Source: an uncultured Bacteroidales bacterium
Lineage (GTDB): Bacteria; Bacteroidota; Bacteroidia; Bacteroidales; Muribaculaceae
Direction: 5' to 3'
Length of the DNA stretch: 64,000 nt
Assembly (NCBI GenBank): GCA_902800715.1
Contig: CADCFN010000001.1
Coordinates: 62,001-126,000 of the forward strand
Shown in pieces: positions 26,079-56,782 of the stretch. The notes beneath the pieces were generated by a model, which did not search any database, was not told the origin of the DNA, and saw only the letters and a list, made by a program, of their open reading frames with translations. Position numbers and translations under genes: made by a program. Numbering within the stretch: the first letter of the stretch is position 1; the number at the start of each line of letters is the position of its first letter.

Positions 26079-28343
26079 TCAATCGTTGTTCACTCCCAAA
26101 ATATAGTTGATGAGGACGTTGAGGTCGGCGACAGTCAGTTCGCCGTCATTGTTCAGGTCACCAACGAGTATTTGGTATCCGCCATGATGCTTAATCACGG
26201 CAGGGAGTATCTCCATCTCGTCATGAAAACTGTACACGAAGCCCGTCACATCACAGGTGTTGTCACCGCCTACCCATTCAAATGACGTTTCGCCCGACAC
26301 AATGCGGCTAATCAGTTCATTGACATCAGCTATGCCAACCTCCGCGTCCCAGTTCAAGTCATAGCAGTACAAGTCATAGAGCTCCTCGATGACCGAGATG
26401 TTGAACTGATTGTACAATTTAATCTCATTATTGCCATCGCTCATGGTCCATGAGCGTGTTTGCCCATCATAATCAGAGAGCTCCACGCCCTTGAATAGCA
26501 GCAAGTGGTGCATCTTTTTCTTGTCAACACTAGCGATAGTAGCCTCGGCAGGTTGGACAGCGGGACCGTGTCCCGAAGACACAAACGAGGAAGGAACTGC
26601 AGGACGTATCTCTTCCATGCCGGCATAGGGTAAGGGCTTAGCCACTGCATCCTGAATGATGTCACCGTTGACAAATGCGCCATCGACAGAACCAAAGACC
26701 AATCCGAAGTCGCCATAGACATCCCGGACATACAAATAGTTGTTATGCTGATAGACCGCTGTGAGCGGCGTAGTGAAATGGCCACTCAGGTTGAAATATT
26801 CGCCTAGCATGTCGTCATCCAGTTTGTAAAGTGTCTTCAAGCGTTTTATATCAGCGATATCATCATATCCGCAATTTAGATGAATGCCCGTGATGCGTAC
26901 CCGATAACCACTGTTTCCAAATTCGCTGTACTCCTCAACCGTGCCATATATGTCATAGCTCCAGCACAGGACTGCAGGCAGAATGGGATTAAAAGTGAGA
27001 AGCGCTGCACAGGACTCTCCTTCAAGGTTCCAAATAGAATAGGGCGAGTAACCCACCTGCTTGAGCACGACATCGTAACCACAAGTCGCTGGTCCGACCT
27101 GGCTAGGAGTGATTACAAGAAGCTCCGTTGGACACGGCACCAATTTCACCGGCAGGAGCTGGTAGATTGTGTTTTCACGACCATAGGAACCCACAATGGC
27201 CCACACGTTGAAGTGACCATTTTCCAGATTGTTTGATGGCGTCACTCCCATGGAACCGAAGTAAACAGGATACTCATGGCCATTGGCATCAATCATCACA
27301 TAAGTGTATCCACTCACTTGCCTGAAAGTCACATTCTCGAAATAAAGGTAATGGGCAAAGAGTTCCGGCCCCAAGACATCCCCTTCGATCATTTCGGGTT
27401 CAATGGAGACATTGCCTGAGGCTGGGCTGAAACCCGAAAGGTCTTTAAACTCCCGCTCTCCGCTATAGGTAGTGATTGTCATCGAGAAGCCTGGAGGAAT
27501 CACGTCACCGCTCTGATAAGTCTGTCCCGTGCTGCCATAGAAGTAGGCATAACCGCCACACTGGTCCTTCACATACAGATTGTTATTATATTGTGCCAGC
27601 ACATAGACGGGAGCGGTCATGGTCACACGAGTGCCATCGGGCAAGTCCATCAGGCCGTCAAAACAGCTTGAACCAGGAAGTTCCTGGAAATCATAGTTGG
27701 CAGTGACGACATCGCTCACTTCACCATCCAGACAGGATATTGCCTTGACCGTCGTGGGCTCAGTAATCACAAACGGAGCGGTATAACGGGTCGAAGAGGT
27801 CGTCGGCATCGTTCCGTCAAGTGTGTAGTAAATCTCAGCGTCCGGTGTGCTGCAGCGCATTGTCACCTCAATGGGACCATAATAGGTATCACTGGCAGGG
27901 CTAATGGCGGGCGGCATCAGCGTAGTGGTGCCGTCATCGAGCGTGACAACAATCTTGGTGATGCGCACCTGATTTTTGTAGGCGGTAAACACGACACGGT
28001 AAGCCGAACCAGTCCATTCGCCAATCTTGCCTTCAATCTGATAGTCCCCTGGCTCGACCATAAAGCCACCTGGGCCATACTGATTGTCACCCTCGCCAAC
28101 ACAGTAAAGCACAATCCGTGACATGGGACCACAAGAAGAGGTAATCACCATTTGCTGACCCTTATAAACACGAATCATCTGGCCATTGTCAAGACCATTG
28201 CTGATTTCAATGTTGATACAGCCTTGAGTGATTGAGAAAGCCTGAGCAGTAGTCGGCCAGCCAGTAGGTAAAATCGTGACATCAGACGCCCATGCTGCAC
28301 TAGCCAGCATCAACATCAACAGGGAGTAGAATACTTTTTTCAT
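26079..28343 (-). CDS. Secreted multidomain protein with split dockerin-like tail
   Basis: From ATG 28343 the 754-residue protein starts with a clean signal peptide (KKVFYSLLMLMLASAAWA); the frame opens 12 codons earlier, but that start would bury the signal. After an N-terminal beta domain comes a chitobiase-type C-terminal repeat (EIYYTLDGTMPTTSSTRY, TTVKAISCLDGEVSD) and then two OB-like modules with NLYVKDQCGGYAYFYG and YLYVRDVYGDFGLVFG. It ends with two dockerin-like segments: DLNWDAEVGIADVNELI and, about 50 residues later, GDLNNDGELTVADLNVLI. No catalytic motif is seen. It is a close architectural paralogue of the next gene at 29214-31700. A surface or extracellular role is inferred. Confidence 0.8.
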   Translation of the reverse strand: MKKVFYSLLMLMLASAAWASDVTILPTGWPTTAQAFSITQGCINIEISNGLDNGQMIRVYKGQQMVITSSCGPMSRIVLYCVGEGDNQYGPGGFMVEPGDYQIEGKIGEWTGSAYRVVFTAYKNQVRITKIVVTLDDGTTTLMPPAISPASDTYYGPIEVTMRCSTPDAEIYYTLDGTMPTTSSTRYTAPFVITEPTTVKAISCLDGEVSDVVTANYDFQELPGSSCFDGLMDLPDGTRVTMTAPVYVLAQYNNNLYVKDQCGGYAYFYGSTGQTYQSGDVIPPGFSMTITTYSGEREFKDLSGFSPASGNVSIEPEMIEGDVLGPELFAHYLYFENVTFRQVSGYTYVMIDANGHEYPVYFGSMGVTPSNNLENGHFNVWAIVGSYGRENTIYQLLPVKLVPCPTELLVITPSQVGPATCGYDVVLKQVGYSPYSIWNLEGESCAALLTFNPILPAVLCWSYDIYGTVEEYSEFGNSGYRVRITGIHLNCGYDDIADIKRLKTLYKLDDDMLGEYFNLSGHFTTPLTAVYQHNNYLYVRDVYGDFGLVFGSVDGAFVNGDIIQDAVAKPLPYAGMEEIRPAVPSSFVSSGHGPAVQPAEATIASVDKKKMHHLLLFKGVELSDYDGQTRSWTMSDGNNEIKLYNQFNISVIEELYDLYCYDLNWDAEVGIADVNELISRIVSGETSFEWVGGDNTCDVTGFVYSFHDEMEILPAVIKHHGGYQILVGDLNNDGELTVADLNVLINYILGVNND

Positions 28344-29137
28344 TTTGCCAATTATCCTGAATCCTAAATATGATAACACATTTCATCGCAAGGAGATTGT
28401 TGAAACGGGCAGGATTCAGTATAACCCATTTCTTCAACCTTTATATCATCGTCTGCCGCGGCATCAGGAGTGTAGTTGCCATGACAGTGTTGGCAGGGAA
28501 TCAACCAATAACGCCAAGAAGGCACTTGACAGCAAATAGCAAAACGAGCAAAAGACGGCACATGGCTAGTCTCTCGCTCGCTTAACTGAGTTATATGCTT
28601 GCTTGTCGCATAAAATGCAATTGATTGATAAAGTCCAAGTTACTTAAACTATTGCTACAAAATTACTATAAAAGACCGCCCAAAGCAATTTTTTAACTTT
28701 TTTTTCGACTCAAGTTCATCCCCATAACTATTCAGCAAATCACAGTGATGCCCAACCCCACGCTAAGCCGCAAAGGCGCTAAGTTTTTTATAATCAATGT
28801 CATAAGTTTATCTATGGAAATCATCTCATGGCTTTAACACATTGGGGCTTATTTTTTTAAGCCCGTAGGGCTGTCAGGTTATAGGCAGGAGTGTAGCGAA
28901 GCGGAACTCCTGTAATTAAGTGCCACACATGAACAATAGCCCCACTAGGGGCGACAGTTTGTGTATCAAGGTTTTAGCGCCGCCCCGATGGGGCTAAGAC
29001 AAGCATGTTTACTACCGCAGGAGTTGCGTTCGGCTTCGCCTCACTACACCCCTGCCTATGCTCTGAGCGCCCCTAACGGGGCTTTTACCTGACGCTAATG
29101 AAAAAAAAACGGCTGACCCTCATGTGTCGCTCTGCTT
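28344..29137. other. Long non-coding spacer between dockerin paralogues
   Basis: The spacer holds no credible gene; the few short open frames lack start context and family features. At 28752-28786 there is a CGCTAAG/CGCAAAGG type repeat of 8-9-base units. At 28861-29093 lies a long inverted-repeat element. The rest is AT-rich sequence in which I see nothing. Confidence 0.7.
28861..29093. repeat. REP-like inverted-repeat element
   Basis: The outer arms are GTCAGGT (28873-28879) and ACCTGAC (29087-29093). Inner arms start ATAGGCAGGAGTGTAG (28881 on) and end CTACACCCCTGCCTAT (29044-29059); the arm tips are CAGGAGTT-like. The interior has small GC palindromes CCCCACTAGGGGC and GCCCCGATGGGGC. It has no open reading frame. 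The layout suggests a folded non-autonomous mobile or REP/BIME-like element. Confidence 0.7.
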
Positions 29138-29213: not shown

Positions 29214-31700
29214 TCAATTGCCGCCAACAATGATTTTGATAATCTCATTGACATCGGCAATGGTGATTTCCATGTCACTGTTGACATCGGCACGAGCGAC
29301 ATACTCTTCCTTCACAGGCTGACCCAAGATAATCGAGATAACGATGTTAGCGTCGGCGATGGTCACCTCACCGTCACCATTCACATCACCCTTCAGGATT
29401 TGGATATCAGGATCTATGTCAATCGAGATGGGATAGAATTCTCTCTCGTTCTTGTAAAGGGTGAGGAAGCCCCAGATGTCGTGGGTATTGTCATCCTCGG
29501 GAATTTCAATATTGAATTTGTTGAACAGAATCATGGCCTCACCATCATCCATCATGGTGTTGTCACCGTCCTTGTAGATGTATGCATCATTAACGCGAAT
29601 ATACCAGTGAACCATATCCTGAGAAATCTCCTCAATGGGATAAACCACGGGCATTACGGGGCCATTATTACCTACTGCCTCATTGAAGGTGCCATTAGCA
29701 GGCTTCAACTGCTTATTGTTATTGTATGTTGTCCAGCTAGCCGCTGCGTCCTCAATGATGTCACCGTTCTTAAACTTGCCATCGACAAAACCATAAACCA
29801 AGGAATAGGTTTCATCCTGGTCGATAACATACAAATTGGGACCATTCTGATAGATGGCAGTCAGCGGAGTGGTGAAAGTAGCAACCACGCCCTCGTTCTT
29901 GGCATACAATTCTTCGATGCTCCCTACATAGACAGGTTTGGGAATAAAGACAATGCGGGTAAGCAAAACCTGATAGTTGGTCCTGAAGGAACCCACAATA
30001 GCGTAAACGGTATAGCTCTGAGTCAAGTCTTCGGGGAAAGGAATACCGAAACGGTCATAGTAACCGATTTCGTGACCCTCGGCATCTTTAAGCACCTTAT
30101 TCTCGGTATCGATAAAGACATTCTCAAGCTTGATATACTGGCCCCAGATGCTATGGCCGATTTCAGGAATGCGTGTCGGTCTTGCATCCTTCTCCAGCTG
30201 TTCAACGCCACCGATGTTACCCTTTGCGGGTTTGAAACCGGTGAGAGTCTTCAACTCGGGCTCCATGTCATAGGTGGTCTTGGTACCGCCATAGCCTGCG
30301 GGAATGATGTCACCAGGCTTATAGGTCTGGCCACATGAACCATAGGCGAGACCGAAGCCGCAATCATCCTTGAGATACAGATAAGAGCCCTGCTGGGCCA
30401 GCACGATAGCATCATGTTCCATGGTGACAACCGTGTTGTCGGGGAGGTCACCCAGAGAGGCGAGAGTACCGTCACAGCCAGGATCACCTATTTTGTGAAC
30501 CAAAGTGGGCAACAACTGATAAACGACATTGTCCTTGCCATAGGAACCTACAATGGCCTCGACAAGATACTTTGCGGTCAAGTCGGAGGGAGCGCTCACA
30601 CCCATTGTGCCGAAATAGACAGCGCAAGTATTGCCGTCCTCATCGGTGAGGGTATAGTTCTTGTTGTCCTCGGTGCTGATGGTAACATTCTCTAAACGTA
30701 CATACCATCCAAACGTCGGGTGACCGACAATATCGGCGCTTATGTCAACAGGTTCAATGGGGCTGTTGCCAGATGCAGGCTGGAAACCAACCAAATCCTT
30801 CAACTCAGGTTCACCATTGTAGGTGGTCTTGGTACCCACAAAGCCAGCGGGAATCACATCACCGTTCTTATAAGTCTGTCCACAGTTGCCATAGAACAAA
30901 GCATAGCCCGACTCATCCTTTACAAAGAGGTAACCCTTGTTCTGTTTAAGCACGTTGACAGGATTGGTGAACTTCACTACCGTTTCGTCAGCAACCTGCT
31001 GATAAGCCTTGATGTTGGGCACAGGGGTTGCACTAGCGAACACATACTCGGCAGTTGCCACAGCAGTCACGTCACCATCCTTAGCGGCAATAGCCTTGAC
31101 AGTAGTGTTGCCGCTAACAGTAAAGGGAGCAGTGTACTGTGTCGAGCTGGTCGTGGGGTCGCTGCCATTGGTGGTGTAGTAAATCTTGGCACCAGCGGTC
31201 ATGCAAGTGATGGACACAGTGATGGGATCGTAATAGGTGCCACCTTCGGGACTGATGACGGGAATTGACAAGCCACCATCGGGCACGGTTACGATAATCT
31301 TGGTGCAACGAACCTGATTGGCCGATGCAGTGAGCACAACACTGGAAGCAGCGCCGGTCCAAGTGCCGATTGCGCCTTCATAGGTGTAGGTGCCTGCAGC
31401 TGCAGTGAAGCAGCCAGGACCATACTGGGCATCGCCCTCAGCAGTACACTCAAACACAATCTTGCTGATATCACCCACCAGAGAGGTGAAAGTAGCAGTC
31501 TGGCTCTTGTAGATGCGATACTGGTTTGAGTTGGCAAGACCATTGGAGATGTCAATCTTGACGCCGCCTTTCTCAATGGAAAAAGCCTGTGCGGTACCGG
31601 GGCTGTTGCCATTGTCAACACCAGCCACGAACTCAATGTCAAGAGCCCAAGCGGCAGATGCCAGCAAACACATGGTTAATAAAGTAAATAATTTCCTCAT
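29214..31700 (-). CDS. Secreted multidomain protein with dockerin-like tail (paralogue)
   Basis: The 828-residue protein has a signal peptide (LFTLLTMCLLASAAWA) and the same order of parts as its neighbour at 26079-28343. These are an N-terminal beta domain (VDNGNSPGTAQAFSIEKGG, GDAQYGPGCFTA), a chitobiase-type repeat (KIYYTTNGSDPTTSSTQY) and three rather than two OB-like modules (GYLFVKDESGYALFYG, YLYLKDDCGFGLAYG, NLYVIDQDETYSLVYG). It ends with a full two-part dockerin-like tail, GDVNGDGEVTIADANIVI and ADVNSDMEITIADVNEII. It has its own promoter and terminator. No enzyme motif is visible; ligand binding or scaffold function is possible. Confidence 0.82.
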   Translation of the reverse strand: MRKLFTLLTMCLLASAAWALDIEFVAGVDNGNSPGTAQAFSIEKGGVKIDISNGLANSNQYRIYKSQTATFTSLVGDISKIVFECTAEGDAQYGPGCFTAAAGTYTYEGAIGTWTGAASSVVLTASANQVRCTKIIVTVPDGGLSIPVISPEGGTYYDPITVSITCMTAGAKIYYTTNGSDPTTSSTQYTAPFTVSGNTTVKAIAAKDGDVTAVATAEYVFASATPVPNIKAYQQVADETVVKFTNPVNVLKQNKGYLFVKDESGYALFYGNCGQTYKNGDVIPAGFVGTKTTYNGEPELKDLVGFQPASGNSPIEPVDISADIVGHPTFGWYVRLENVTISTEDNKNYTLTDEDGNTCAVYFGTMGVSAPSDLTAKYLVEAIVGSYGKDNVVYQLLPTLVHKIGDPGCDGTLASLGDLPDNTVVTMEHDAIVLAQQGSYLYLKDDCGFGLAYGSCGQTYKPGDIIPAGYGGTKTTYDMEPELKTLTGFKPAKGNIGGVEQLEKDARPTRIPEIGHSIWGQYIKLENVFIDTENKVLKDAEGHEIGYYDRFGIPFPEDLTQSYTVYAIVGSFRTNYQVLLTRIVFIPKPVYVGSIEELYAKNEGVVATFTTPLTAIYQNGPNLYVIDQDETYSLVYGFVDGKFKNGDIIEDAAASWTTYNNNKQLKPANGTFNEAVGNNGPVMPVVYPIEEISQDMVHWYIRVNDAYIYKDGDNTMMDDGEAMILFNKFNIEIPEDDNTHDIWGFLTLYKNEREFYPISIDIDPDIQILKGDVNGDGEVTIADANIVISIILGQPVKEEYVARADVNSDMEITIADVNEIIKIIVGGN

Positions 31701-31930: not shown

Positions 31931-33661
31931 ATGTCAATATCAGGTTTTACATCAAGAATTGTCCTGTTGGTGTTGGTCCTCAGTACCCCATTCTTGGCGT
32001 CGGCTCAAGGAATTCGCATCGGCGACTATAAAGCGGTGCAAGACAAAGCCAGTGACCAATGGCTGTGTTGCGTGCCACGGCAAGTGTTCGGTACCGACTG
32101 GACTGTAACAGTCCTGCCCGACAGCACTTGGAGCTACCTTACCTTCCTGGCTAACGCCACCTCCAGTGGTGAGACGACCACATTCCATCATATCGAGGGC
32201 GGGAAACTGTTCCCGTTCACCGCAACCGTCGGTGACAGTGCCATTAACGGTAACGTCACTTTCACCTGGCTTCCCATTTTGGAACTGGATGGGGACATTG
32301 GATTCGACTATTCCGAGGGCTCGGTGAGCGTGAATGCCGCCGACAGCACAAGCAAGGATAACATGCGCGCAAAACTCAAATGGCGTGGCAATCACAGCAA
32401 TGACTCCAGTAAGCACAAGCGAAATTACAGCATCAAGTTCCTGGACAAGAACGGCGGAAAGAAGAACCGCAGCCTCCTGGGGATGCGCAAGGATAACCAC
32501 TGGAAACTGGATGGTGGACAGTCTGACCCGCTGCGTGTGCGCAACCGCGTCATTACCGACCTGTGGCTTGATATGGCACGCGCACCGTGGCACCAAGACT
32601 TGGATAGCAGTGCTGTTAACGGCTCACATGGCAAAATCACCGAAGTATTCCTCAACGGCAACTACATCGGTATTTACAATCTGATGGAACCCATCGACCG
32701 CAAACAACTGGCGCTGGTCAAGTATGACACCGTGCGCAACGAGTTCCATGGCCAAATGTGGTGTGTCAAGACTTGGTGCCGCACTGGAACGATGTCCCAA
32801 CCCATTGAGTGGAGCAACGACAGTGAGACGTGGGACGGTATCGAGGTTTCATACCCAGACTTTGAGGAAGTCTGCCCAACCGACTGGAGCACGCTCGCTA
32901 ATGCGGTCACCTTTATCAAGCAGACTGATGTCGATGACAAATGGATAGAACATGACGACTCACTGGACGTTTATTTTGACATGCCGGTGATGCAGGATTA
33001 CTTTATCCTTATAGCCACCATGCAGTTGATTGACAACGAATCCAAGAATCTGTATTACAGCGTGTTTGACAAGACGATTGACCATCGCCTCACCATGACG
33101 CCTTGGGACTTGAACGTGGGTGCTGGAGCACGCTCCATTCCATACATGACACCACCGATGATTAGCCCGGAACGCCCCTTGAACTGGATATCGCACATTC
33201 CCATGTATGCCATGTTCAATATTTCCAATCGCCTTCGACAACAGGTGATTGACCGCTACTGGGAGTTGAGGAAGACATGGTTGGACACCGACAGTCTGGT
33301 GAACCGCTTCCAGAGAGCGGTTGACGAACTGCAGCAGTGTGGTGCCGTGGCTCGTGAAGAGGCCCGATGGAAGGGAGATAGCGACCTGGGCAACCAGGAA
33401 CTGGACTTCAATGCCGAGATGGAATATATTGCCGACTGGATTAGGCGGCGCATGGCATACCTCGACACCAACGTGTTTAATCGACCGAATGTCATCACTG
33501 GAGACGTGAATGGGGATCACGAGGTGAGCGTTGCCGATATCAACTGGGTTATCAACGACATCGTGACAGGCGCCAATTCCTCCAATTGTGACGTAGATGG
33601 TGACGGCGAAGTCAGCATCAACGACGTCAACCGAATTATCAGCATCATCGTCCAGCATTGA
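31931..33661 (+). CDS. Secreted CotH-kinase-family protein with dockerin-like tail
   Basis: From ATG 31931 the protein has 576 residues. The signal peptide is SRIVLLVLVLSTPFLASAQG. The CotH-like core shows KLKWRGNHSNDSSKHKRNYS, SLLGMRKDNHWKLDGG, RVRNRVITDLWLDM, ITEVFLNGNYIGIYNLMEPI and the late acidic motif TPWDLNVGAG. Spore CotH is an atypical protein kinase, and secreted bacterial relatives often join carbohydrate-binding or dockerin parts; the activity of this one is unproven. The tail has both dockerin-like halves, GDVNGDHEVSVADINWVI and CDVDGDGEVSINDVNRII. Frame-open codons upstream to 31904 begin with TTG and are less likely. recA follows with its own promoter. Confidence 0.86.
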   Translation: MSISGFTSRIVLLVLVLSTPFLASAQGIRIGDYKAVQDKASDQWLCCVPRQVFGTDWTVTVLPDSTWSYLTFLANATSSGETTTFHHIEGGKLFPFTATVGDSAINGNVTFTWLPILELDGDIGFDYSEGSVSVNAADSTSKDNMRAKLKWRGNHSNDSSKHKRNYSIKFLDKNGGKKNRSLLGMRKDNHWKLDGGQSDPLRVRNRVITDLWLDMARAPWHQDLDSSAVNGSHGKITEVFLNGNYIGIYNLMEPIDRKQLALVKYDTVRNEFHGQMWCVKTWCRTGTMSQPIEWSNDSETWDGIEVSYPDFEEVCPTDWSTLANAVTFIKQTDVDDKWIEHDDSLDVYFDMPVMQDYFILIATMQLIDNESKNLYYSVFDKTIDHRLTMTPWDLNVGAGARSIPYMTPPMISPERPLNWISHIPMYAMFNISNRLRQQVIDRYWELRKTWLDTDSLVNRFQRAVDELQQCGAVAREEARWKGDSDLGNQELDFNAEMEYIADWIRRRMAYLDTNVFNRPNVITGDVNGDHEVSVADINWVINDIVTGANSSNCDVDGDGEVSINDVNRIISIIVQH

Positions 33662-34929: not shown

Positions 34930-36240
34930 TTAATGTCCACTCAGGATCCTGGTGATAAGAGTTGTGATATCTTCGATGTTGACACCACCATCACCGTTGA
35001 CATCTCCGGCCTCCTCGCTGAACACGACAACAAGTTTTGCGCCTTCATGGAGTCGACTCACCAGTGTCGAATCCTCGACCGATGCAGTAACATCAAGGCC
35101 ATCGACGAGTACCTGATACAGTATATAGCCGCTCCTGGGAGTGAAGACAAACGTGTTGTTGGCATCGCTGCTGATTTGCACCTCAACAATGTCACCGGCA
35201 GTTACCTCCGCACCGTTCACTGTGATTGTACCCTTGTTGTTGCTGGCAATAGTCACGATGTTATGTGTCAAGGCGGTAATCGTGGGAATCACATTCCATC
35301 CGGCAGTGTTCTTGTAGGTGTTGACCAGATCTCTAGGCACATAGAGCGTGGCATTGGTAGCGCTGCTGAAGGTGCTGGTACTAATCTCAAAGACCCTGGT
35401 AATGTAGCAATAGATGCTTTCGAGGTTAGAACAACCTGAGAATGCATTATATGCGATGCTGGTGATACTTTCAGGGAGATTGATCGTCGTCAGATTGGTT
35501 CTGCCCATGAATGCATATTCGCCGATGCTCACGACGCCATCAGGAATGACGGTGGAAATACCACCAATAACCAACCCATTGGTAGCCGTGTTAATAATGG
35601 CATTGCAATTGTTACGGGAATCATATACCGTGTTCGCCGGGTCCACAGTGATTTCACTCAACATCGGGCAGTTCATAAAGGCCTGAAATGATACCCATGC
35701 AACCGAAGCCGGAATTTCTATACCGCTCAGTGATTTGCAATAATAGAAAGCAAGTCCACTGATTTTCTCTAAAGATTCTGACAATTTAATTTGCTGCAGA
35801 TTTTCACACCATGCAAAAGCATAGGAATACATCATTGTCACAGAATTAGGCATCTCAAAATGTGTAAGGCCGTTGCAGTAAGCAAAAGCCGCTTCACCAA
35901 TTTTAGTCACAGTTGTCGGCAGGGTTACCGATGTGACTGTGGTATAGGCTCTGAAGCTCATCGGGATCGAATCGCCATCATAGTATTCGATGTTGGTAAT
36001 GTAGCCAAACGCGCCACTACCCACCTCGGTGACCATATAGGTGGTTCCATTGTGTGTTACCGATTCAGGCACGACAATATCGCCTGTATAAGACGTATAC
36101 ATGGCCTTATAAGTCACCCTAACAGTGACACTGTCACTATTGATTTTATAGGCAAGCCCGCCTTCCATAAAATCATAAGCATGAAGTGATGACACACAAC
36201 ACAACAGAGCAAAAATTGAAAGTAGTCTAAATGTCCTCAT
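34930..36240 (-). CDS. BspA-like leucine-rich-repeat surface protein with half dockerin tail
   Basis: The 436-residue protein has a signal peptide (LLSIFALLCCVSSLHA). LRR_5/BspA repeats follow from about 65 to 285: SVTLPTTVTKIGEAAFAYCN, HFEMPNSVTMMYSYAFAWC, KISGLAFYYCKSLSGIEIP, VSIGEYAFMGRTNLTTINLP. A beta domain of about 90 residues comes next (TIASNNKGTITVNGAEVTAG, FTPRSGYILYQVLVDGLDV). The protein ends with a single dockerin-like half, GDVNGDGGVNIEDITTLI. BspA-type proteins often bind host or bacterial surfaces; that role here is inference. The single repeat half is shorter than the tails elsewhere in the window. Confidence 0.85.
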   Translation of the reverse strand: MRTFRLLSIFALLCCVSSLHAYDFMEGGLAYKINSDSVTVRVTYKAMYTSYTGDIVVPESVTHNGTTYMVTEVGSGAFGYITNIEYYDGDSIPMSFRAYTTVTSVTLPTTVTKIGEAAFAYCNGLTHFEMPNSVTMMYSYAFAWCENLQQIKLSESLEKISGLAFYYCKSLSGIEIPASVAWVSFQAFMNCPMLSEITVDPANTVYDSRNNCNAIINTATNGLVIGGISTVIPDGVVSIGEYAFMGRTNLTTINLPESITSIAYNAFSGCSNLESIYCYITRVFEISTSTFSSATNATLYVPRDLVNTYKNTAGWNVIPTITALTHNIVTIASNNKGTITVNGAEVTAGDIVEVQISSDANNTFVFTPRSGYILYQVLVDGLDVTASVEDSTLVSRLHEGAKLVVVFSEEAGDVNGDGGVNIEDITTLITRILSGH

Positions 36241-47809: not shown

Positions 47810-47815
47810 CAACAA

Positions 47816-47872: not shown

Positions 47873-50341
47873 TTATTGACCGAGAATGATGCTGATGACC
47901 GAATTGATGTCGGCAACGGTGACCTCGCCGTCGCGGTTCACATCGGCAGTACCATTGACAACACCCTTCAAGATGACCTCGATGATGGAGTTGACATCAG
48001 CCACGCTCACCTCACCGTCAAGGTTCACGTCACCAAAGGGATATATTGGCTCAACATGATGGCTGGTGTAATGGCAATAGAACGACTTCAGGTTCATCGT
48101 GTGCGCACCCAACTGAGTATCCTTGCTGAGGTTGAACTTGATGGTCTTGAGCGTGATGGGATAAGTGCCCACATAGTCAGCGCCACCCAGCGACTCCAGG
48201 TCAATCAACAGGATGTGGTCCTCGCCCACGGTAAATGTCGCGGCATCGTTCTCGGGCTTGAACTTGAGGTAGTTGGTCATTGTTTTGAAGCGGTTGCGCG
48301 TATCAATCTGTACATTCTCCACCAGCATGGTCGTATTGAATACCAGGGCAATCGTATCGGGCAAGCCGAACAGTTTCAAATCATTAGTAAACTGCAGATA
48401 AGGAGCACGGTTAGAGGCATACTCACATGTAATCTCGCCGGTTTCCTTATTGAAGTTGATGTTCTTTGGACCAGCGCCCTTCACCGTCCAGTCTTCCCAA
48501 GACAAATTCTGATAGGCATCTGGACTGATTTCCACAGTCAACTCACTGGAACCGCTGTAAGGTCCCACATTATAGGCATAGGAGGTGGTACCATTCTGCT
48601 TGCCGCGCACCACGCCATCGGTGATTTCAGCGACATCAGTGTCGCCAATCGACCAGTCGAAGATTGAAGGATCGTAGTAATAAGTATTGTTCACAATCTG
48701 CGAGGTCAACTCGATGGGATACTCGCGGTCATCAATCAAGAGTGGTGTCAGCACCAGACTGGGCTGAGCGGGCATGATGTGGACGGGAACTGTCGCGGTC
48801 ATGCCATTGAGCGTGGCGGTGAGTTCTCCGCGTGTGTCTCCGCCGCCCGCAATAAAGGTAGAGTCGCTAGCAATACCCAGAGCAGCATCACACGACAAGG
48901 TGAAGCCCTTGACATCCTCATCAATCAGCTCGCCAATCTTATTGTAACCCAAGATGCGGGGCACAGTCATCGAATATTCACCGATGTCAATGCGGAAGTT
49001 GTCAAAGGCGATACTTGCAACCTCGTAATCTTCCTCGCCAATGGCCTCGACCATCCAGCCGGTAGCGACGCCACGCGGCGTGCCCTCGGTGGTCGTGTTG
49101 ATGACCTGTCCGCCCACCAGCATCTCGGAAGAGCCGCCGGCATCCATGTTGATAGCAACCTGGATGTCGGGCCACACCGATTTCATAATCTGGCACGCTT
49201 CGGCAGTGGGGCAGCCACGCGACAAGCCATACTTGGGGCTCGTCGAGAGGTCGATAACCATCAGGTACAGGCGCTTGCCATCGCCATTGGTGCCGTAGAT
49301 GGTGCGTGAATAGTTGGGCGTGTTATAACCGTCGTTGTAGTTACGCGACGTGAGTTCGCCATTCAGTATGAGCGTCGCTTGTCCCCAAACAAGGTTTTCG
49401 ATGCGGGGGTATAACTCAGGCTGACTTTCATCGAGCGTACGGAAGCCCGAAGTCACCTCAATGGTGTCGCCCACCTGGAGTACCGACATCGCAGCCTTGT
49501 TAGCGTCACCAGTGACAGCAAGAGCAGCATTGGAATAGCCCAGGTTCTTGCGGTCCTCACCATACACAATGCGATTCACCACAAACTTCATGGGGCTGTT
49601 GGTTTTCCATTGCTCTTTCACTTCATTCTCATCGATGACAAACGACAAGTAATAATTATCGGTCTGGTTGTCACCGCGCGTGTCGTAGTTAATCCAGTCA
49701 TCCTCGAACTCACGGTTGCGCTGGAAAGCGGGGTTATACAAGCAAATCTCGCCTCTGACGGCACGGCGGTTGATGTTATGATAGGGCAACGGAGCAGCCA
49801 GCTTGCTCGACGTGATGGTACCCTCCCACATGACGCGGCCCATCACCAGGCGTTTGTCGGTAGTGATGCCTGCAGCGCCCGTCATCCACGGTCCACCACC
49901 CCACTGGTCCACAGTGTTGTTGTCGTTGACGATAGTGGTGTCATTGCGCACTACACCACCAAACGGGAACAGCTTTTGCGAAGCCGCCAGGGGACCACTT
50001 GTCGCCACATTCCAGAAGTTGGCGTTGCAAGCCACCAGCGGACGCTTGGTCGGGGTCCTGTGACGAATCATTGATGTAGACAGCAGTTCAGTTCTTCCCA
50101 ACAAGCCGTTGCCGAAGGTCGTTTCCACACGATTGTTGGGATTGTTAAGGTCGGTCTCGATAAAATAGACATTAAGCGGAATGTCGGGAATACGGACAAT
50201 CGTGTTGATGGTACCTGGCGCCACTTGTCGCCTCACCAATGTGTCGGCATGATGCGAGATGCCGTTAATCACAATATCAGCACGCGACGGCATAATGGCA
50301 ACAACAGCCATCAGCAGCATGAGCAGTAGTTCTTTTTTCAT
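47873..50341 (-). CDS. Secreted phosphodiester-glycosidase (NAGPA-like) protein with dockerin-like tail
   Basis: From ATG 50341 the protein has 822 residues and a signal peptide (LLLMLLMAVVAIMPSRA); the frame stays open to 50431, but that lies upstream of the promoter. The N-terminal 450 residues have the NAGPA/phosphodiester glycosidase pattern: RPLVACNANFWN, MVIDLSTSPKYGLSRGCPTA, and IQVAINMDAGGSSEMLVGG. The middle is beta-rich with Big-like parts (TYYYDPSIFDWSIGDTDVAE). The end is a full dockerin-like pair, GDVNLDGEVSVADVNSII and ADVNRDGEVTVADINSVI. The family removes N-acetylglucosamine from phosphodiester links; the bacterial substrate is unknown. Confidence 0.85.
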   Translation of the reverse strand: MKKELLLMLLMAVVAIMPSRADIVINGISHHADTLVRRQVAPGTINTIVRIPDIPLNVYFIETDLNNPNNRVETTFGNGLLGRTELLSTSMIRHRTPTKRPLVACNANFWNVATSGPLAASQKLFPFGGVVRNDTTIVNDNNTVDQWGGGPWMTGAAGITTDKRLVMGRVMWEGTITSSKLAAPLPYHNINRRAVRGEICLYNPAFQRNREFEDDWINYDTRGDNQTDNYYLSFVIDENEVKEQWKTNSPMKFVVNRIVYGEDRKNLGYSNAALAVTGDANKAAMSVLQVGDTIEVTSGFRTLDESQPELYPRIENLVWGQATLILNGELTSRNYNDGYNTPNYSRTIYGTNGDGKRLYLMVIDLSTSPKYGLSRGCPTAEACQIMKSVWPDIQVAINMDAGGSSEMLVGGQVINTTTEGTPRGVATGWMVEAIGEEDYEVASIAFDNFRIDIGEYSMTVPRILGYNKIGELIDEDVKGFTLSCDAALGIASDSTFIAGGGDTRGELTATLNGMTATVPVHIMPAQPSLVLTPLLIDDREYPIELTSQIVNNTYYYDPSIFDWSIGDTDVAEITDGVVRGKQNGTTSYAYNVGPYSGSSELTVEISPDAYQNLSWEDWTVKGAGPKNINFNKETGEITCEYASNRAPYLQFTNDLKLFGLPDTIALVFNTTMLVENVQIDTRNRFKTMTNYLKFKPENDAATFTVGEDHILLIDLESLGGADYVGTYPITLKTIKFNLSKDTQLGAHTMNLKSFYCHYTSHHVEPIYPFGDVNLDGEVSVADVNSIIEVILKGVVNGTADVNRDGEVTVADINSVISIILGQ

Positions 50342-50402
50342 TATCATCTGATTTTTAAGGACGCCATCGCGCTTGCCAACGACAGCGACACGGTTTATTG
50401 TG

Positions 50403-50410
50403 CAAATATA
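50403..50410 (-). promoter_or_regulatory. Promoter (TATATTTG) of NAGPA-dockerin gene
   Basis: The minus strand reads TATATTTG, about 60 bases before the chosen ATG at 50341. It rules out the more upstream start in the same frame. Confidence 0.7.
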
Positions 50411-50499
50411 CACAAAATCCAGAACCCGCAAAAAAAATCTGCGGTTTTCTATCTGCCAGAAAGGTAAACAATTAAAAGGTCTAAAAAGATTTTAACTCA

Positions 50500-52128: not shown

Positions 52129-53301
52129 TTATCTGCCGCTGAAGAGGCCTTTGATACCGTCCATGTCAAACGACAAGGTGAAACGCAACGTCTGGTCCAA
52201 CGGACTATTCTGGGCGGTAGCAATCATGTAGCTGGCGTCAATCTTAATCACTTGAAGCGCGAAACCGGCACCCAAACCGAAGTACTGACGGTTACCGGCG
52301 TATTTGCTCTCGTAGTAGTAACCGCCACGCAGGAAGAACTTCTGGTCGTAAGCATACTCAGCACCTACCGAATAGGTAATGCGCTTGACGAAATTGTCCT
52401 TAAAGCTATCGAAGATACCTGCGATAGACGACTTGTTCTTCCACTCCTCCAGAGCATCATCAAAGGCCAAATCATCTTCAAAATCGGCACGACGGGGCTT
52501 GGCAGGAACGAGCAGCTTGTTGGCATCAAAAGCAAGCGTCAGGTTGTTGGCATCGGCTACGGGGAAGGTGAACGACGTACCCAGCTTCATGTTAGCGGGC
52601 AAATAGGCAGGGTCGTTGCCCTTGTTGTAGGACACCTTGGAACCGATATTGGACAAGTTGAAACCAAGCGACCACTGGCACTCGTTACGTCCAATGATAG
52701 GGTATGTGGTATAGTAACCCGAAAGGTCAGCCGAGAAAGCCGATGCGCTCGACGTCTGGTCTCCCGTATTCATATCACTGTAACCCAAGTCACTGTAGAT
52801 GTAACGCAACGTAACACCCATCGCGAACTTCTCACTCAACTTGCGGCTATAGCCCAAATCCACCGAGAGCTCAAACGGGTTGATGGTTCCCAGGGTGGCA
52901 CCCTCGCCGTCGGTCGACATCACCTCGCCCAGCGAGAAATAGCGTAACGAGGCACTCACCGCCTGGTTGTCGCTGCTGCCAATCTTGTAGTATCCCGAGA
53001 GGTTAGCCAAGTAGATGTCGTTCACAATCTTGCGCAACCAAGGAGTGTATGACAACGACACGCCTGCGCGGCTGAAAGCGAAAGCATACTTCGACGGGTT
53101 CCAAAACTGGGAGTTCACGTCAGGCTCGGTAGCAGCACCCAAGTCACCCATCGACGCACCACGCGCATCAGGGGTAATACTCAACGAGGTGACACCCGTG
53201 GTCACGGGGTTAAATTCGGTGTTCTTGATGTCGTCCTGAGCCCAAGCGGTTAATGTTGTGGCCATCAGAGCGATGGCAATTATCGATTTTGTCAGTTTCA
53301 T
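52129..53301 (-). CDS. porV: Type IX secretion outer-membrane protein PorV
   Basis: PorV is the outer-membrane barrel that receives type IX cargo and passes it to the attachment complex. The 390-residue protein has a signal peptide (SIIAIALMATTLTAWA). It continues with the PorV/PorQ family start SLSITPDARGASMGDLGAAT and NSQFWNPSKYAF, then alternating strands to a C-terminal LRFTLSFDMDGIKGLF. It is a FadL-like barrel. It suggests the organism has a type IX system, yet no cargo here shows a standard type IX C-terminal domain. The next gene upstream is the dockerin-tailed amylase. Confidence 0.9.
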   Translation of the reverse strand: MKLTKSIIAIALMATTLTAWAQDDIKNTEFNPVTTGVTSLSITPDARGASMGDLGAATEPDVNSQFWNPSKYAFAFSRAGVSLSYTPWLRKIVNDIYLANLSGYYKIGSSDNQAVSASLRYFSLGEVMSTDGEGATLGTINPFELSVDLGYSRKLSEKFAMGVTLRYIYSDLGYSDMNTGDQTSSASAFSADLSGYYTTYPIIGRNECQWSLGFNLSNIGSKVSYNKGNDPAYLPANMKLGTSFTFPVADANNLTLAFDANKLLVPAKPRRADFEDDLAFDDALEEWKNKSSIAGIFDSFKDNFVKRITYSVGAEYAYDQKFFLRGGYYYESKYAGNRQYFGLGAGFALQVIKIDASYMIATAQNSPLDQTLRFTLSFDMDGIKGLFSGR

Positions 53302-53401: not shown

Positions 53402-55495
53402 CTAATTATTGCCGTTCAGCAACCAGTCAATCAAGTCAGTCACGTCGGCGATAGAGATTTGGTCATCAGCATTCATGTCGGCATTATCAGCGTTAATCGC
53501 ACTGGCATTACCGTTCAACAGGTAGTCGATTAATGCCGTCACATCGGCAATGGAGACATTGCCGTCATCATTCACGTCACCGATAACGATATCATTGTCC
53601 AGATAAGGCAGATAATCGGCTGTCACATCACGCACCTGGTATTTGTTGGTCTGCGTCGTTACCTCAAAGAAAGCGGTCTCGCGCACACCCGTCACGTCCA
53701 CAGTCTGGTGGCTGCCTGCCGTGCTGCCGCCCTGGTTGAACACAAAGTTCACAAAGTAGTTGGAACCGGTGATGGTGAATGTTTTGTAATAGAACTTCTC
53801 GCCATGTACCATGCGGGTGTCGGTCACCACCTCACCCGGCCAATTGCCGCACTGCTGTGCATCGTTGCTGTCCCAGCAGTAGTACACGACCCGTGGCCAG
53901 TTGTTGGGAGCCACAGTCGGGTCCTTAAGATAGACCGTGATTTCATAGGCTTCATAGCCTTCCTCGTTGATGACAGTATAATTGCGGGTGATAACTCCTG
54001 TCACAGTGCCATTAACGAGCAAGCCGGCTTTGAGTGTCAGGCACTTGTTGATGCGCACACTCTCACCGCTGGCAATAACAATGCCATTGGTAGCGGTCGG
54101 CTCGGTACCATCAAGTGTATAGACAATCTGTGCGCCCGTGTTCTGACTGATTGCCGTCAACGTCACATTGAACGGGTCCTGACTCACGCCACTGGGCACA
54201 CTTGCCCAAGCCGTCTCGGTCGATTTACTCAAGGCAAGGCGGTAGTTGGTGCCACTTGCCACCACGACGTAGGACGAGGGCATCGTGAAGGCCGAGCCAC
54301 CCATGGCTGCCATCAAGGTGCCACGCGAGCCTGTAGTGCGCTGGACGTAATAGTTGTTGTTATTGCTGTAAGCATACTGGGCAGTGGCACTGGTGTTGGT
54401 AATACCAGCCAACTGGCGGGCATAAATCATCTGCTTGATGCTCTCTTTGTAGCTCATCCAGTGCTTGAGGAAAACGCACGGAGTGCCTGGCATAGCCATC
54501 ATATAGGCATTGGCAGCCTCGACATACTGCGTGATGGGATCCTGGGGATTGCTGGCATCGCGGTATTGCGTGTCGTGGTTCTCGACAAAGGTTACCGCAT
54601 ATCGCATGTAGTTGCTTTCGGTGTTCAGACCCTTGCCGGTACCCGACAGGTTGGTCCACTTGTTATTGTTCACCGCATCGCGAATGGTATAGCGGAAGGG
54701 AAAATCAAATGCTGCGCTCTGCACTACGCCATTGACCTTGGTGCCGTCAATCCATGCCTTGACTGCGCTCAGATTGCCGTCCCAGTACTCTCCCACCGAA
54801 TAGGTGGGGTTGGCATAGGCGTTATACATGCCCGTAAATCTGGCGGCATAACCCCTGGTCATATCGTAGCGGAAACCGACATAGCCCATGTCATCAAGCA
54901 GCATCTTAATATAGGCCTTGACGTTGTTCTGAACATTGGTACTGTTATGGTCCAGGTCACGCATACCACTCCAGTCCTCTCCAGTGTCGTTGTTGGTGCT
55001 CAGCGAATAGCCATGGGAGGTCGCCCAACTCAATGCCTGTCCGCCATCGTCATCACGGCAGATGTCGGTGGACTTGAGCTGATAGGTCACGCCCTTGTAG
55101 GTCTCGGCGGGGAAATCCACCCAGTTGGAAACATTCTTGCGGTGGTTGATGACCACGTCGGCTATTGTGCCAATGCCCTTACTGCTGAAGGTGTTAATCA
55201 TTGACTGCAGCTGCGCCTTTGAGCCAAAGGAACTATTGTAGTTGGTAAACCAATACAAGGGATCATAGCCCATTGAGGTATATCCGCTGCAATAGCCGCT
55301 CTGCGGTATCCACACAAGGCTGAAGAACTCAGCAAACTCGTCGGCTTGAGCCTCGAGGTTGGTCCACTTGCTGTCATTGTAGGAGTCCCAATAGAATCCC
55401 TGAAGCATCACACCGCCATAATTTGTGGGCCAGCCTTGTGCCATCAACAACACGGGCGTCAGCATCCACATTGCAATTAAAATCATCCGTTTCAT
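53402..55495 (-). CDS. Secreted alpha-amylase, GH13, with dockerin-like tail
   Basis: This is a GH13 amylase acting on starch outside the cell. The 697-residue protein has a signal peptide (ILIAMWMLTPVLLMAQG), then GGVMLQGFYWDSYND. The conserved regions are DVVINH (113-118), GFRYDMTRG with nucleophile Asp211, GEYW with acid/base Glu236, and FVENHD with Asp308. After the barrel comes a beta domain with a chitobiase-like segment (QIVYTLDGTEPTATNG) and a starch-binding-like part (WPRVVYYCWDSNDAQQCGNW). The end is a full dockerin-like pair, GDVNDDGNVSIADVTALI and ADMNADDQISIADVTDLI. It has its own promoter. Confidence 0.95.
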   Translation of the reverse strand: MKRMILIAMWMLTPVLLMAQGWPTNYGGVMLQGFYWDSYNDSKWTNLEAQADEFAEFFSLVWIPQSGYCSGYTSMGYDPLYWFTNYNSSFGSKAQLQSMINTFSSKGIGTIADVVINHRKNVSNWVDFPAETYKGVTYQLKSTDICRDDDGGQALSWATSHGYSLSTNNDTGEDWSGMRDLDHNSTNVQNNVKAYIKMLLDDMGYVGFRYDMTRGYAARFTGMYNAYANPTYSVGEYWDGNLSAVKAWIDGTKVNGVVQSAAFDFPFRYTIRDAVNNNKWTNLSGTGKGLNTESNYMRYAVTFVENHDTQYRDASNPQDPITQYVEAANAYMMAMPGTPCVFLKHWMSYKESIKQMIYARQLAGITNTSATAQYAYSNNNNYYVQRTTGSRGTLMAAMGGSAFTMPSSYVVVASGTNYRLALSKSTETAWASVPSGVSQDPFNVTLTAISQNTGAQIVYTLDGTEPTATNGIVIASGESVRINKCLTLKAGLLVNGTVTGVITRNYTVINEEGYEAYEITVYLKDPTVAPNNWPRVVYYCWDSNDAQQCGNWPGEVVTDTRMVHGEKFYYKTFTITGSNYFVNFVFNQGGSTAGSHQTVDVTGVRETAFFEVTTQTNKYQVRDVTADYLPYLDNDIVIGDVNDDGNVSIADVTALIDYLLNGNASAINADNADMNADDQISIADVTDLIDWLLNGNN

Positions 55496-55536: not shown

Positions 55537-55578
55537 TCACTTTTCCCGAAATCAGCCACAAAAAAGCGTCAGGAAACT

Positions 55579-55613
55579 AAAAAATGATGCGCCACCCGGC
55601 AGTGGCGCACCAT
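55579..55613 (-). terminator. Terminator after repeat-dockerin protein gene
   Basis: The stem ATGATGCGCCAC (55584-55595) with GTGGCGCACCAT (55602-55613) has one A/C mismatch. On the minus strand it is followed by TTTTTT. Confidence 0.85.
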
Positions 55614-55642
55614 TTCAATTCAATATGCTACACAGTAATTGA

Positions 55643-56782
55643 TTAATTATTGTGCATGATGTAGTCAATGATTGCGGTCACGTCAGAAATCGCAACCTGC
55701 CCGTCATTGTTAAAGTCGGCACCGTCAACATTAATTCCGCCAACATTAACGCCCAAGACGTAATCGATGATTGCGGTCACGTCGTTCACAGTTACCTTGC
55801 CGTCTCCATCAGCGTCACCTGGGATAACAGTAACCATAGCAGGGATTTCAACGTAGTACTCAACTTCGGTATAGCCAATTAAAGCATTCTCATTTGCCTG
55901 GGCGGTGGCCCACACGTTTACATAAGTGGTTTCAGAACCGCGTGGTATCTCAAAGACTACGCTTTCCTCACCCAAGAAGGACTCGGTGGTCATCTCACCA
56001 GTAGCATTGTCGATGAACTGGATGTAGAGCGTTACAATACCCTCACCAGTGGCGGTGAAAATCATAGCGTCATCGGTCAAGTCATATTGCAAAACAGGAG
56101 CGGGAGTCACGTAGGGGTCAGCAGGTTCGCCTGGAACAAATACAATATAATAAATATATTCACTCATCTCCCAACCATCTACCTGAGCTGTAGCAGAAAA
56201 GACGTATTCCTCTCCATCGGGTTCATCGCTATATGGAATAAAAAATCCAACAGAGCCATCGTCTATGGCAACAAGTTCACCATCCAAGTACAGACAAATG
56301 GTGCCCTCACCGGTTACGGTGACCAAAATACCATCTCCAGTATCCTCGTGATACAACTCGGGGCAGGGAGTAATTTGGGGAGGCATCTCTTGAGCAGGAA
56401 TCTCAATGTAATACTGAACGGGTATAACCCCAGGAACAGCATCATCGTTTGCCTGGGCGCTTGCCCACACGTTAACATAGGTGGTTTCATAATCGCGCGG
56501 GACCTCTACGGAAACGGCTCCATAATCTGAGTATTGCTCGTTGGTCACCTCTCCAGTCCAATTGTCAATATACTGGATGTAAAGCGTCACAGTACCCTCA
56601 CCAGTAGCGGTAAAAATCATAGCATAATCAGTCAACTCATAGCTCAAAATCGGAGCAGGCGTCTCGTAGGGGTCATCATCCCTAGTCTGATTCTCAGCAA
56701 CACCAAGAACAGGGGCATTCTCACTCGACCACATGATGCCGACAGTCATCAACATCAAGGATAAAAATAAAAATCTCTTCAT
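55643..56782 (-). CDS. Secreted internal-repeat protein with dockerin-like tail
   Basis: The 379-residue protein has a signal peptide (LFLSLMLMTVGIMWSS) and three related beta modules of about 90 residues. The first (from PAPILSYELTDYAMIFTATG) and third (from PAPVLQYDLTDDAMIFTATG) are nearly the same; the middle one (ELYHEDTGDGILVTVTGEG) has diverged. They look like chitobiase- or Ig-type folds. The end is a full dockerin-like pair, GDADGDGKVTVNDVTAII and ADFNNDGQVAISDVTAII. It is strongly acidic and has no catalytic motif. A binding role on the surface is inferred. Confidence 0.78.
   Translation of the reverse strand: MKRFLFLSLMLMTVGIMWSSENAPVLGVAENQTRDDDPYETPAPILSYELTDYAMIFTATGEGTVTLYIQYIDNWTGEVTNEQYSDYGAVSVEVPRDYETTYVNVWASAQANDDAVPGVIPVQYYIEIPAQEMPPQITPCPELYHEDTGDGILVTVTGEGTICLYLDGELVAIDDGSVGFFIPYSDEPDGEEYVFSATAQVDGWEMSEYIYYIVFVPGEPADPYVTPAPVLQYDLTDDAMIFTATGEGIVTLYIQFIDNATGEMTTESFLGEESVVFEIPRGSETTYVNVWATAQANENALIGYTEVEYYVEIPAMVTVIPGDADGDGKVTVNDVTAIIDYVLGVNVGGINVDGADFNNDGQVAISDVTAIIDYIMHNN

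Follow-up and report, generated by a model that had tools for sequence, protein, structure and literature searches.

A putative non-cellulosomal cohesin–dockerin display system in an uncultured Muribaculaceae bacterium

The cellulosomes of clostridia and Ruminococcus are cohesin–dockerin systems. With them, the uncultured Muribaculaceae bacterium considered here (GenBank assembly GCA_902800715.1) shares secreted proteins with dockerin tails, the dockerin fold, its two repeated calcium loops and—in relatives of this genome—cohesin scaffoldins and adaptors that combine one cohesin with one dockerin. Unlike cellulosomes, the present system occurs together with type IX machinery, its cargo is rich in C10 peptidases, LRR proteins and CotH proteins, with few glycosidases among the families listed, its own cohesins lie beyond the reach of the Pfam profile PF00963, and its single-cohesin anchors bear a dockerin of their own.

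Other described systems each share part of this arrangement. In the part of the account available to us, Candidatus Stygibacter (Cloacimonadota) has a cellulosome-like complex, with one scaffoldin of 3,755 residues that carries tandem cohesins and CBMs and with five dockerin proteins named (PMC8542988). As far as that account extends, the likeness lies in peptidases and glycosidases with C-terminal dockerins, in a CTD-bearing cohesin scaffoldin for surface attachment and in a target other than cellulose, and the difference in the roughly 150 dockerin proteins, two tandem one-cohesin LRR anchors and two dockerin classes found here, genus-wide. The machine for type IX surface anchoring (SprA/PorU/PorV, acting with a C-terminal domain, CTD) is present in our genome and the anchors end in CTD-like tails but, unlike usual type IX substrates, the cargo has a dockerin in place of a CTD. 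For 'Ca. Paraporphyromonas', the portion of the report available describes 42 CAZyme genes as CTD-bearing and identifies no cohesin or dockerin (PMC5831590). Single-cell genomes from the cockroach hindgut hold PF00404 dockerins in Alistipes, Bacteroides and another member of the Bacteroidales, with a PF00963 cohesin only in a Christensenellales genome; unlike the present case, no dockerin expansion, receptor or anchor is described for those Bacteroidales in the available part of that paper (PMC10266427). The mucinolysome of Limousia, presented in the accessible text as a cellulosome-like assembly specialised for mucin degradation, is likewise a gut-bacterial assembly with a target other than cellulose (PMC12997984). 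Among the titles and abstract openings that made up our literature search, with most subscription journals outside its scope, no comparable dockerin expansion or set of cohesin anchors is described.

We propose, with a probability of about three in four, that some 150 dockerin proteins of this bacterium dock on a few diverged cohesins, two of them on anchors exported by the type IX system, in a non-cellulosomal surface display with two dockerin classes, T and N. The proposal builds on dockerins, cohesins (recognised through intermediates), SprA/PorU/PorV, gene layout and class structure, all read from sequence. If it is true, the 'dockerin-containing' proteins of a species-rich genus would form one surface-display system bearing peptidases, LRR proteins and CotH proteins, not cellulases.

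Dockerin tails in the window and across the genome

The window is a stretch of 64,000 nucleotides (contig CADCFN010000001.1, positions 62,001 to 126,000), in which a preliminary description had reported seven open reading frames (ORFs) with tails of the GD-N-DG-V-I-DV type. All seven tails are present, as full pairs, one half and one split pair (Table 1); the CotH gene is on the forward strand and the other six genes are on the reverse strand. Pfam Dockerin_1 scores above its cut-off in five of the seven proteins (those starting at 29214, 31931, 47873, 53402 and 55643), while Pfam (E ≤ 0.01) detects no dockerin in the protein at 26079, where reading by eye shows two complete calcium-loop halves spaced by ~67 residues rather than the usual ~33. 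The cargo names given earlier agree with Pfam (Alpha-amylase, NAGPA, CotH and LRR_5, with CHB_HEX_C/Fn3_assoc in both 26079 and 29214), and Pfam finds no domain other than the dockerin in 55643.

Table 1: Dockerin tails and PorV in the window (positions counted from its first nucleotide).
Feature	Position	Strand	Protein	Details
Dockerin half, C-terminal (DLNNDGELTVADLNVLINYILG)	26082..26159	-	CHB_HEX_C/Fn3_assoc protein, 26079-28379	N class by eye; from translation, no Pfam dockerin match
Dockerin half, upstream (DLNWDAEVGIADVNELISRI)	26295..26360	-	26079-28379	~67 residues before the other half (split pair); from translation
C-terminal dockerin	29232..29393	-	CHB_HEX_C/Fn3_assoc protein, 29214-31700	PF00404 41.6 bits; G000:C1:91232-91393; N class by eye
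C-terminal dockerin	33500..33643	+	CotH protein, 31931-33661	PF00404 29.2 bits; N class
Half dockerin, C-terminal	34939..35010	-	BspA-like LRR protein, 34930-36240	PF00404 19.0 bits (cut-off 22.9); T type by eye
C-terminal dockerin	47885..48034	-	NAGPA phosphodiester glycosidase-like protein, 47873-50431	PF00404 28.8 bits; N class
C-terminal dockerin	53426..53581	-	GH13 amylase, 53402-55495	PF00404 34.7 bits; AlphaFold2 pLDDT 78.8; T class
C-terminal dockerin	55658..55822	-	55643-56782	PF00404 32.3 bits; T class
PorV, type IX secretion outer-membrane protein	52129..53301	-		NF033710 461.5 bits

When an AlphaFold2 model of the amylase tail was compared with the PDB using Foldseek, all 34 matches were dockerins (probability 1.00; lowest E 4.5e-3, with no match below 0.001) and none came from another EF-hand family, which bears on the earlier question of whether these might be ordinary EF-hand-like tails. 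Judged by sequence and by this model, the window tails are dockerins. The reported absence of a standard type IX CTD was confirmed: the seven proteins gave no match to CTD models, and a scan of the window ORFs other than 26079 (six in all) with our CTD profiles A4 and A5 was likewise negative.

Collecting all tailed proteins, as had been suggested, gave 154 PF00404 matches in the genome (E ≤ 10), of which 150, in 148 ORFs, were taken into the dockerin analyses; two of these entries derive from a single gene interrupted by an in-frame stop, whose 18-residue remnant was left out of the domain scan (147 ORFs). In 128/148 ORFs, no more than 60 residues separate the dockerin from the C-terminus; in 117 it ends within ten residues of the C-terminus, and in 12 it stands immediately behind the signal peptide. 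Loops, lipoboxes and signal peptides were scored with custom patterns of this analysis: by a crude score, 137/148 dockerin ORFs have a Sec-type signal, and the lipobox pattern gave no convincing match in the 148. The genome seems, from these sequences, to encode about 150 secreted dockerin proteins, and the window is a sample of them. At the genome rate (150 of the 154 matches over 3.30 Mb), 2.9 dockerins are expected per 64 kb, against six in the window (Poisson P = 0.075), so the density earlier taken as the sign of a common system is a genome-wide property: the shared tail does extend across genome and genus, but the window itself is no special cluster and local clustering is unsupported.

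Among the matches listed for the 147 scanned ORFs are 20 to Peptidase_C10 and 30 to LRR_5, and among those listed for the first 100 dockerin ORFs are 11 to CotH, while glycosidases are few among the 25 families listed for each batch of the 147. The cargo consists largely of C10 cysteine peptidases, BspA LRR proteins and CotH proteins; the families listed for these 147 ORFs are not those of a cellulosome in the strict sense, with its mainly plant-cell-wall glycoside hydrolase cargo. Classified by their halves, 78 dockerin ORFs are T/T, 36 are N/N and none is T/N, and homologous cargo swaps class (the two members differ in 102 of 251 homologous pairs).

Cohesins, anchors and scaffoldins

The preliminary description saw no cohesin, which holds for the window and, with PF00963, for the whole genome (zero matches). 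It fails with profile A1, built from the cohesin modules of congeners with this genome excluded, which locates three cohesins (E 2.9e-18, 4.5e-18 and 1.8e-15). Since PF00963 finds none and the congener profile three, the apparent absence is a matter of profile sensitivity, the PF00963 search of the genome itself is misleading and missing PF00963 matches are no evidence that cohesins are absent. Two of the three lie on tandem proteins (G000:C4, frames of 716 and 706 residues), the anchors, both of which run from a signal peptide through BspA LRRs, a dockerin of their own and the cohesin to a C-terminal tail that is a candidate type IX signal. The third cohesin (G000:C1:142939-143331) stands alone on a secreted protein without dockerin or CTD, 17 kb beyond the window. 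A profile from the short cohesin ORFs of relatives (n = 12, including one partial frame; all found via profile A2, hence not fully independent), run against the lone cohesin together with the 148 dockerin ORFs (149 own proteins), selects exactly these three cohesins. Three diverged cohesins, of which two belong to proteins whose tails are type IX candidates, lend support to an option raised earlier, that of an unrecognised cohesin-like receptor.

Sequence comparison points to homology of the three modules with known cohesins, through intermediates only (from A1 to PF00963 and the PDB): 8 of the 19 A1 modules match PF00963 at E ≤ 1 (best 29.4 bits, above the cut-off), and cohesins come out on top when A1 is compared with PDB sequences (5n5p_A, E 8.8e-6). 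Profile A2, which was built without three G309 scaffoldin modules present in A1, aligned with Pfam-positive cohesins of the same order with an hhalign probability of 95.7, against 0.2 for a control with a CTD profile; for profile A3, 22 of 30 cohesin loci were used. The anchor cohesins are very diverged. When 42 of them were compared with Pfam at E ≤ 1, PF00963 was matched by seven, DUF11 by seven and Fn3-like families by six, and a profile of anchor cohesins alone found no cohesin in the PDB and scored 90.3 against known cohesins by hhalign. The Pfam-positive cohesin profile performed weakly over the 149 own proteins (lone cohesin E 0.012, one anchor 0.027), with two other own proteins ranking at or above these and a protein other than the cohesins in first place, and a Pfam hmmscan of an entire 919-residue scaffoldin from a relative lists no cohesins, though single modules pass. 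Scans of viral contigs and of genome contigs found no cohesin loci; the genome-contig scan turned up a single Clostridia LRR locus.

Cohesins of this kind occur in 61/61 genus genomes searched, drawn from a larger number, and at least 40 dockerins in each of the ten genus genomes scored, this one included. They may also answer an earlier call to look for a co-occurring beta-sandwich protein: outside the genus, dockerins were found in 22 of 28 cohesin-positive and 24 of 111 cohesin-negative genomes (Fisher p 3.6e-8, uncorrected for kinship). One genome, G295, has 31 dockerins and zero cohesins by A2. Scaffoldins that also carry a dockerin have six cohesins in congeners G351 and G426, three in G443 and two in G442, and six cohesin matches fall in a single frame of 916–921 residues in G448, G449, G466 and G478; in two congeners, the six-cohesin scaffoldin with dockerin adjoins a dockerin–cohesin–CTD protein. 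The tandem layout in 20 relatives is partly a choice, because they were picked for close pairs of cohesin matches or frames of ~700 residues; the further loci examined in relatives were picked for cohesin matches, and the relatives' dockerins sampled are the best-scoring matches. The adaptors and the scaffoldins with two, three or six cohesins and a dockerin that relatives add point to a non-cellulosomal cohesin–dockerin display system. In our genome (88.9% complete), three single cohesins and no multi-cohesin scaffoldin were found; this result, with a ratio of three to ~150 dockerins, counts against the display model, as do the divergence of the anchor cohesins and the case of G295.

Export and surface attachment

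PorV does adjoin the amylase gene, as first described, and SprA (2547 bits) and PorU (956 bits) are also present; PorV likely belongs to the apparatus by which the cohesin anchors would be exported. Under the display model, cargo with a Sec-type signal, which means nearly all of the ~150 proteins, would dock by its calcium-loop dockerin to the diverged cohesins; SprA/PorU/PorV would export both tandem anchors and fix them on the outer surface, and the lone secreted cohesin would join the small cohesin set. Binding, the pairing of class with cohesin, the export route and the surface location are what we infer, and a calcium-dependent surface complex would fit the data.

How dockerin cargo without a CTD would cross the outer membrane is a point against this model, and a question for Gram-negative secretion: by what route do ~150 proteins that are exported by Sec and lack a type IX signal get outside, if they do? 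On a reading that we regard as doubtful, the dockerin would be an export or sorting ticket that works in trans: cargo would fold in the periplasm, be caught there by an anchor cohesin and leave in complex via SprA to be fixed at the surface, with two carriers, orthogonal for T and N, serving ~150 proteins. An indirect, piggy-back role of this sort is what may remain of the earlier suggestion that the tail is used by an export machine.

It is improbable that the complexes are instead soluble, assembled in the medium or periplasm on adaptors or scaffoldins and not attached to the surface, with anchor tails that are not type IX signals. The anchor tails do lack matches to TIGR04183 and PF18962, the lone cohesin has neither dockerin nor CTD, and most of the cargo combines a Sec-type signal with no convincing lipobox. 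Against this, the second anchor's tail type resembles PF18962-matching and congener tails (hhalign 84.6, E 6.8e-6, with one of the five own reference tails above the PF18962 cut-off), the first anchor's type, for which the likeness is weak (14.7), occurs at 30 genome places (E ≤ 1e-4, C-terminal position not confirmed for each), and cohesin proteins with CTD-like tails recur among relatives.

We give still less credit to partnerless tails, in which EF-hand-like modules would bind calcium as linkers or stabilisers and the cohesin-like modules would be unrelated beta-sandwiches. The anchor domains match DUF11 or Fn3-like families about as often as cohesin and reach no PDB cohesin, and three single cohesins are few for ~150 dockerins; but the Foldseek matches are dockerins without exception, cohesins and dockerins co-occur and, in relatives, share proteins in scaffoldin layout, and a spacer would not need the absence of T/N ORFs while cargo swaps class. 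That the dockerin itself replaces the usual CTD as a type IX signal, read directly by PorV/PorU, is very improbable: a type IX system is present, most dockerins end close to the C-terminus and their overlap with candidate CTDs is small (two anchors and one ORF by A4/A5, plus one weak PF18962 match in a further dockerin ORF), but the reading is disfavoured mainly by the 12 dockerins directly behind a signal peptide, and also by the separate C-terminal tail that the likely anchors carry, by the candidate CTD retained at those 30 places, by the co-occurrence of cohesins with dockerins and by a modelled fold that is a dockerin and not the beta-sandwich of a CTD.

Dockerin classes and anchors

In the display model, the class structure would acquire a meaning. 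Each of the two anchors carries a different dockerin class and, among the 42 anchor cohesins, those of first and second anchors in the own clade separate into two groups, both supported at 100/99; T/S dockerins accompany one group and N dockerins the other. Two classes, one per anchor, suggest two specificities, and in the own clade T and N each probably pair with a cohesin specificity of their own; alternatively, they could be two ancient dockerin families whose difference has no bearing on receptors. As matched specificities, they may be natural orthogonal plug–socket pairs. The swapping of class extends to close homologues: of two amylases that are 68% identical, one is T and the other N.

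Dockerins of the window, the genome and the genus

The dockerin-like tails claimed in the preliminary description for seven ORFs of the window are all real: five exceed the Pfam Dockerin_1 cut-off, and the other two are a half, lying below that cut-off at the C-terminus of the BspA-like protein, and a split pair in the protein at 26079, with its two calcium-loop halves ~67 residues apart. Pfam also bore out the names given to the cargo (GH13 amylase, NAGPA, CotH, LRR_5 and CHB_HEX_C/Fn3_assoc proteins), and the neighbouring PorV is genuine. The amylase tail was modelled with AlphaFold2 using five aligned window tails as input (pLDDT 78.8); in Foldseek the model matched 34 PDB chains, all of them dockerins (best E 4.5e-3, none <0.001), and many of these structures include a bound cohesin.

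Such tails occur throughout the genome, of which the window shows only a sample. The 3.30-Mb assembly (88.9% complete) gives 154 Dockerin_1 matches at E ≤ 10; of the 150 listed, nearly all exceed the cut-off, and these 150 yielded 148 ORFs, the genome-wide collection proposed earlier. The dockerin ends ≤10 residues from the C-terminus in 117 ORFs and within 60 in 11 more; it is internal in eight and directly follows the signal peptide in 12, seven of which extend beyond the sequence used. Several of these 12 (L042, L136, L129, L053, L128, L067 and six others) look Fib_succ-type or SUMF1-like by eye. A signal-like start was scored, crudely, in 137 of the 148; none of the five matches to a lipobox pattern was judged genuine. 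By Pfam, 147 of the ORFs include 20 with Peptidase C10, 30 with LRR_5 (counting both anchor proteins described below) and few glycosidases among the families listed; CotH proteins number 11 among the first 100. Spi-type inhibitor domains occur in 17/147, and dockerin genes adjoin in runs at L109 and L110 (contig C11, 127–156 kb), one in L109 being a C10 peptidase by Pfam.

The dockerin expansion is genus-wide, with at least 40 in this genome and in each of nine congeners sampled; among other family members, dockerins were found at E ≤ 0.001 in 46/139 genomes, mostly one or two. In the relative G331 (L229–L232), the 22-residue motif of each repeat (DVNGDGEVTGSDVTALYNHILF and its partner) is the same in nine of 12 sampled dockerins, suggesting that the tail was recently duplicated or underwent gene conversion.

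Cohesins in the genome and its relatives

The earlier statement that no cohesin is in sight holds for the window and, genome-wide, for PF00963, which has no match even at E 10 and exceeds its cut-off in three of nine congeners sampled, but fails with a profile of 19 congener modules, none from this genome (A1), which finds three places at E 2.9e-18 to 1.8e-15. Two belong to tandem frames of 716 and 706 aa, the first and second anchors, each comprising signal peptide, BspA LRRs, dockerin, cohesin and tail; the third adjoins a dockerin gene of CotH-like look. A 267-aa frame with cohesin and CTD-like tail in G413 has a neighbour gene that looks, by eye, the same as that of this lone cohesin.

Cohesin and sortase features of the genome
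Feature	Position	Context	Evidence
One cohesin of tandem pair	C4:300909-301274		A1 profile
Other cohesin of tandem pair	C4:302977-303351		A1 profile
Lone cohesin	C1:142939-143331	175-aa secreted protein without dockerin or CTD, 17 kb past the window	A1 profile
Two PorU-type sortase genes	C1:131375-134872 and C1:126457-129918 (L142)	right of the window, ~1.5 kb apart	956 and 704 bits to NF033707

The same three cohesins, and no others, were picked out of 149 own proteins (the lone cohesin and the 148 dockerin ORFs) by a second profile, built on 12 short cohesin ORFs from relatives. One of the 12 is a partial frame, and every one had been located with A2, a profile lacking the three G309 scaffoldin modules of A1. 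Eight of the 19 A1 modules match PF00963 at E ≤ 1 (best 29.4 bits vs. cut-off 24.1), and A1 ranked cohesins first among PDB sequences (5n5p_A, 8.8e-6). In profile-profile comparison (hhalign probabilities), A2 scored 95.7 against 22 Pfam-positive cohesins of the same order (0.2 for the CTD control), and the anchor cohesins alone 90.3 against known cohesins (control 0.5). An anchor-only profile retrieved no cohesin from the PDB, single anchor cohesins match DUF11 or Fn3-like domains about as often as cohesin, and a profile of Pfam-positive cohesins scores weakly on the genome's own. The anchor cohesins are thus more diverged than the A1/A2 set, and identification of the genome's modules as cohesins rests on intermediate sequences.

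Cohesins were present at E ≤ 0.001 in 61/61 genus genomes (1 to 16 each), some profile rows coming from the genomes searched. Outside the genus they occur in 28/139 genomes, with dockerins in 22 of these 28 vs. 24 of the 111 cohesin-negative genomes (Fisher p 3.6e-8, kinship ignored). G295 (85% complete) breaks the pattern: it has 31 dockerins, yet A2 finds no cohesin in it, which would mean that contigs are missing or that its receptor has diverged even further. Across the order, PF00963 matches 90/295 genomes at E ≤ 0.01 and exceeds the cut-off in 76; the figure of 90 is more than the portions of the literature consulted suggest.

In two congeners a 919-aa frame combines six cohesin modules with a C-terminal dockerin and adjoins a 574–576 aa frame with dockerin, cohesin and CTD-like tail; four more congeners have six cohesin hits within one 916–921 aa frame. 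Among loci of relatives picked for their cohesin hits, 11 short ORFs (213–228 aa) carry a cohesin and C-terminal dockerin, nine of them adjoining a larger frame in which two cohesins flank a dockerin of a different type ahead of a CTD-like tail. G442 and G443 add scaffoldins in which a dockerin repeat is joined to two and three cohesins, respectively.

Of the systems described in the sections consulted, the putative complex of Ca. Stygibacter comes closest: there, dockerins on peptidases and glycosidases accompany one large CTD-tailed cohesin scaffoldin (PMC8542988). In the portions consulted, the S24-7 genome paper reports a type IX system and CTD proteins that include a C10 peptidase homolog, and the word dockerin does not appear (PMC4936053).

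Export and probable anchoring

SprA is present (2547 bits), along with PorV, PorU (956 bits) and a further PorU-like protein (704 bits); a second, partial SprA match (527 bits) lies in a 483-aa frame at C3:76143-77489. The first anchor's tail type recurs at 30 places in the genome at E ≤ 1e-4, one inside a dockerin ORF, and the second's at six (E ≤ 0.1). Against a set of nine reference tails (four from congeners, and five from this genome that match PF18962, one above cut-off), the second anchor's type scored 84.6 and the first's 14.7; both proteins are therefore probable type IX anchors. CTDs are absent from the dockerin cargo, few cases excepted; this cargo would cross the outer membrane either by an unseen route or bound to an anchor. 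The latter is conceivable because the type IX system carries folded proteins.

Dockerin classes and anchors

Classed by the residue two positions after the last loop aspartate, the genome's dockerin ORFs comprise 78 T/T, 36 N/N, no T/N, 17 other combinations and 17 unassigned by pattern (by match, 77, 34 and one T/N). Class differs in 102/251 homologous cargo pairs, which are not independent; the closest such pair is two amylases 68% identical, T in the window and N at L103. These swaps, with T/N absent or rare, mean that class moves between cargo and is hardly ever mixed inside one dockerin.

Among best-scoring dockerin matches sampled from relatives, G386 has N in 7/7 and two N anchors, and G331 T in 12/12 and T-type anchors (the second with one A repeat). 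G413, with one readable T repeat per anchor, has 11 S/S, two S/T and one T/T; samples are T in G426 (5/5), G351 (6/6) and G400 (1/1), the first two genomes also having an anchor of another type. Shared receptors would give such a pattern, but class would be evened out by gene conversion among dockerins too, and T and N might be two old dockerin families that carry no receptor meaning.

The genome's own first anchor carries a T dockerin and the second an N, and eight of 20 chosen relatives share this order and the same two cohesin groups. G459 has S then N, and G451 T then N but with cohesins outside the two groups. Within the clade, cohesins of first and second anchors form two groups (support 100/99) of 11 and 10 species, this genome counted; G492 is represented by its first anchor alone.
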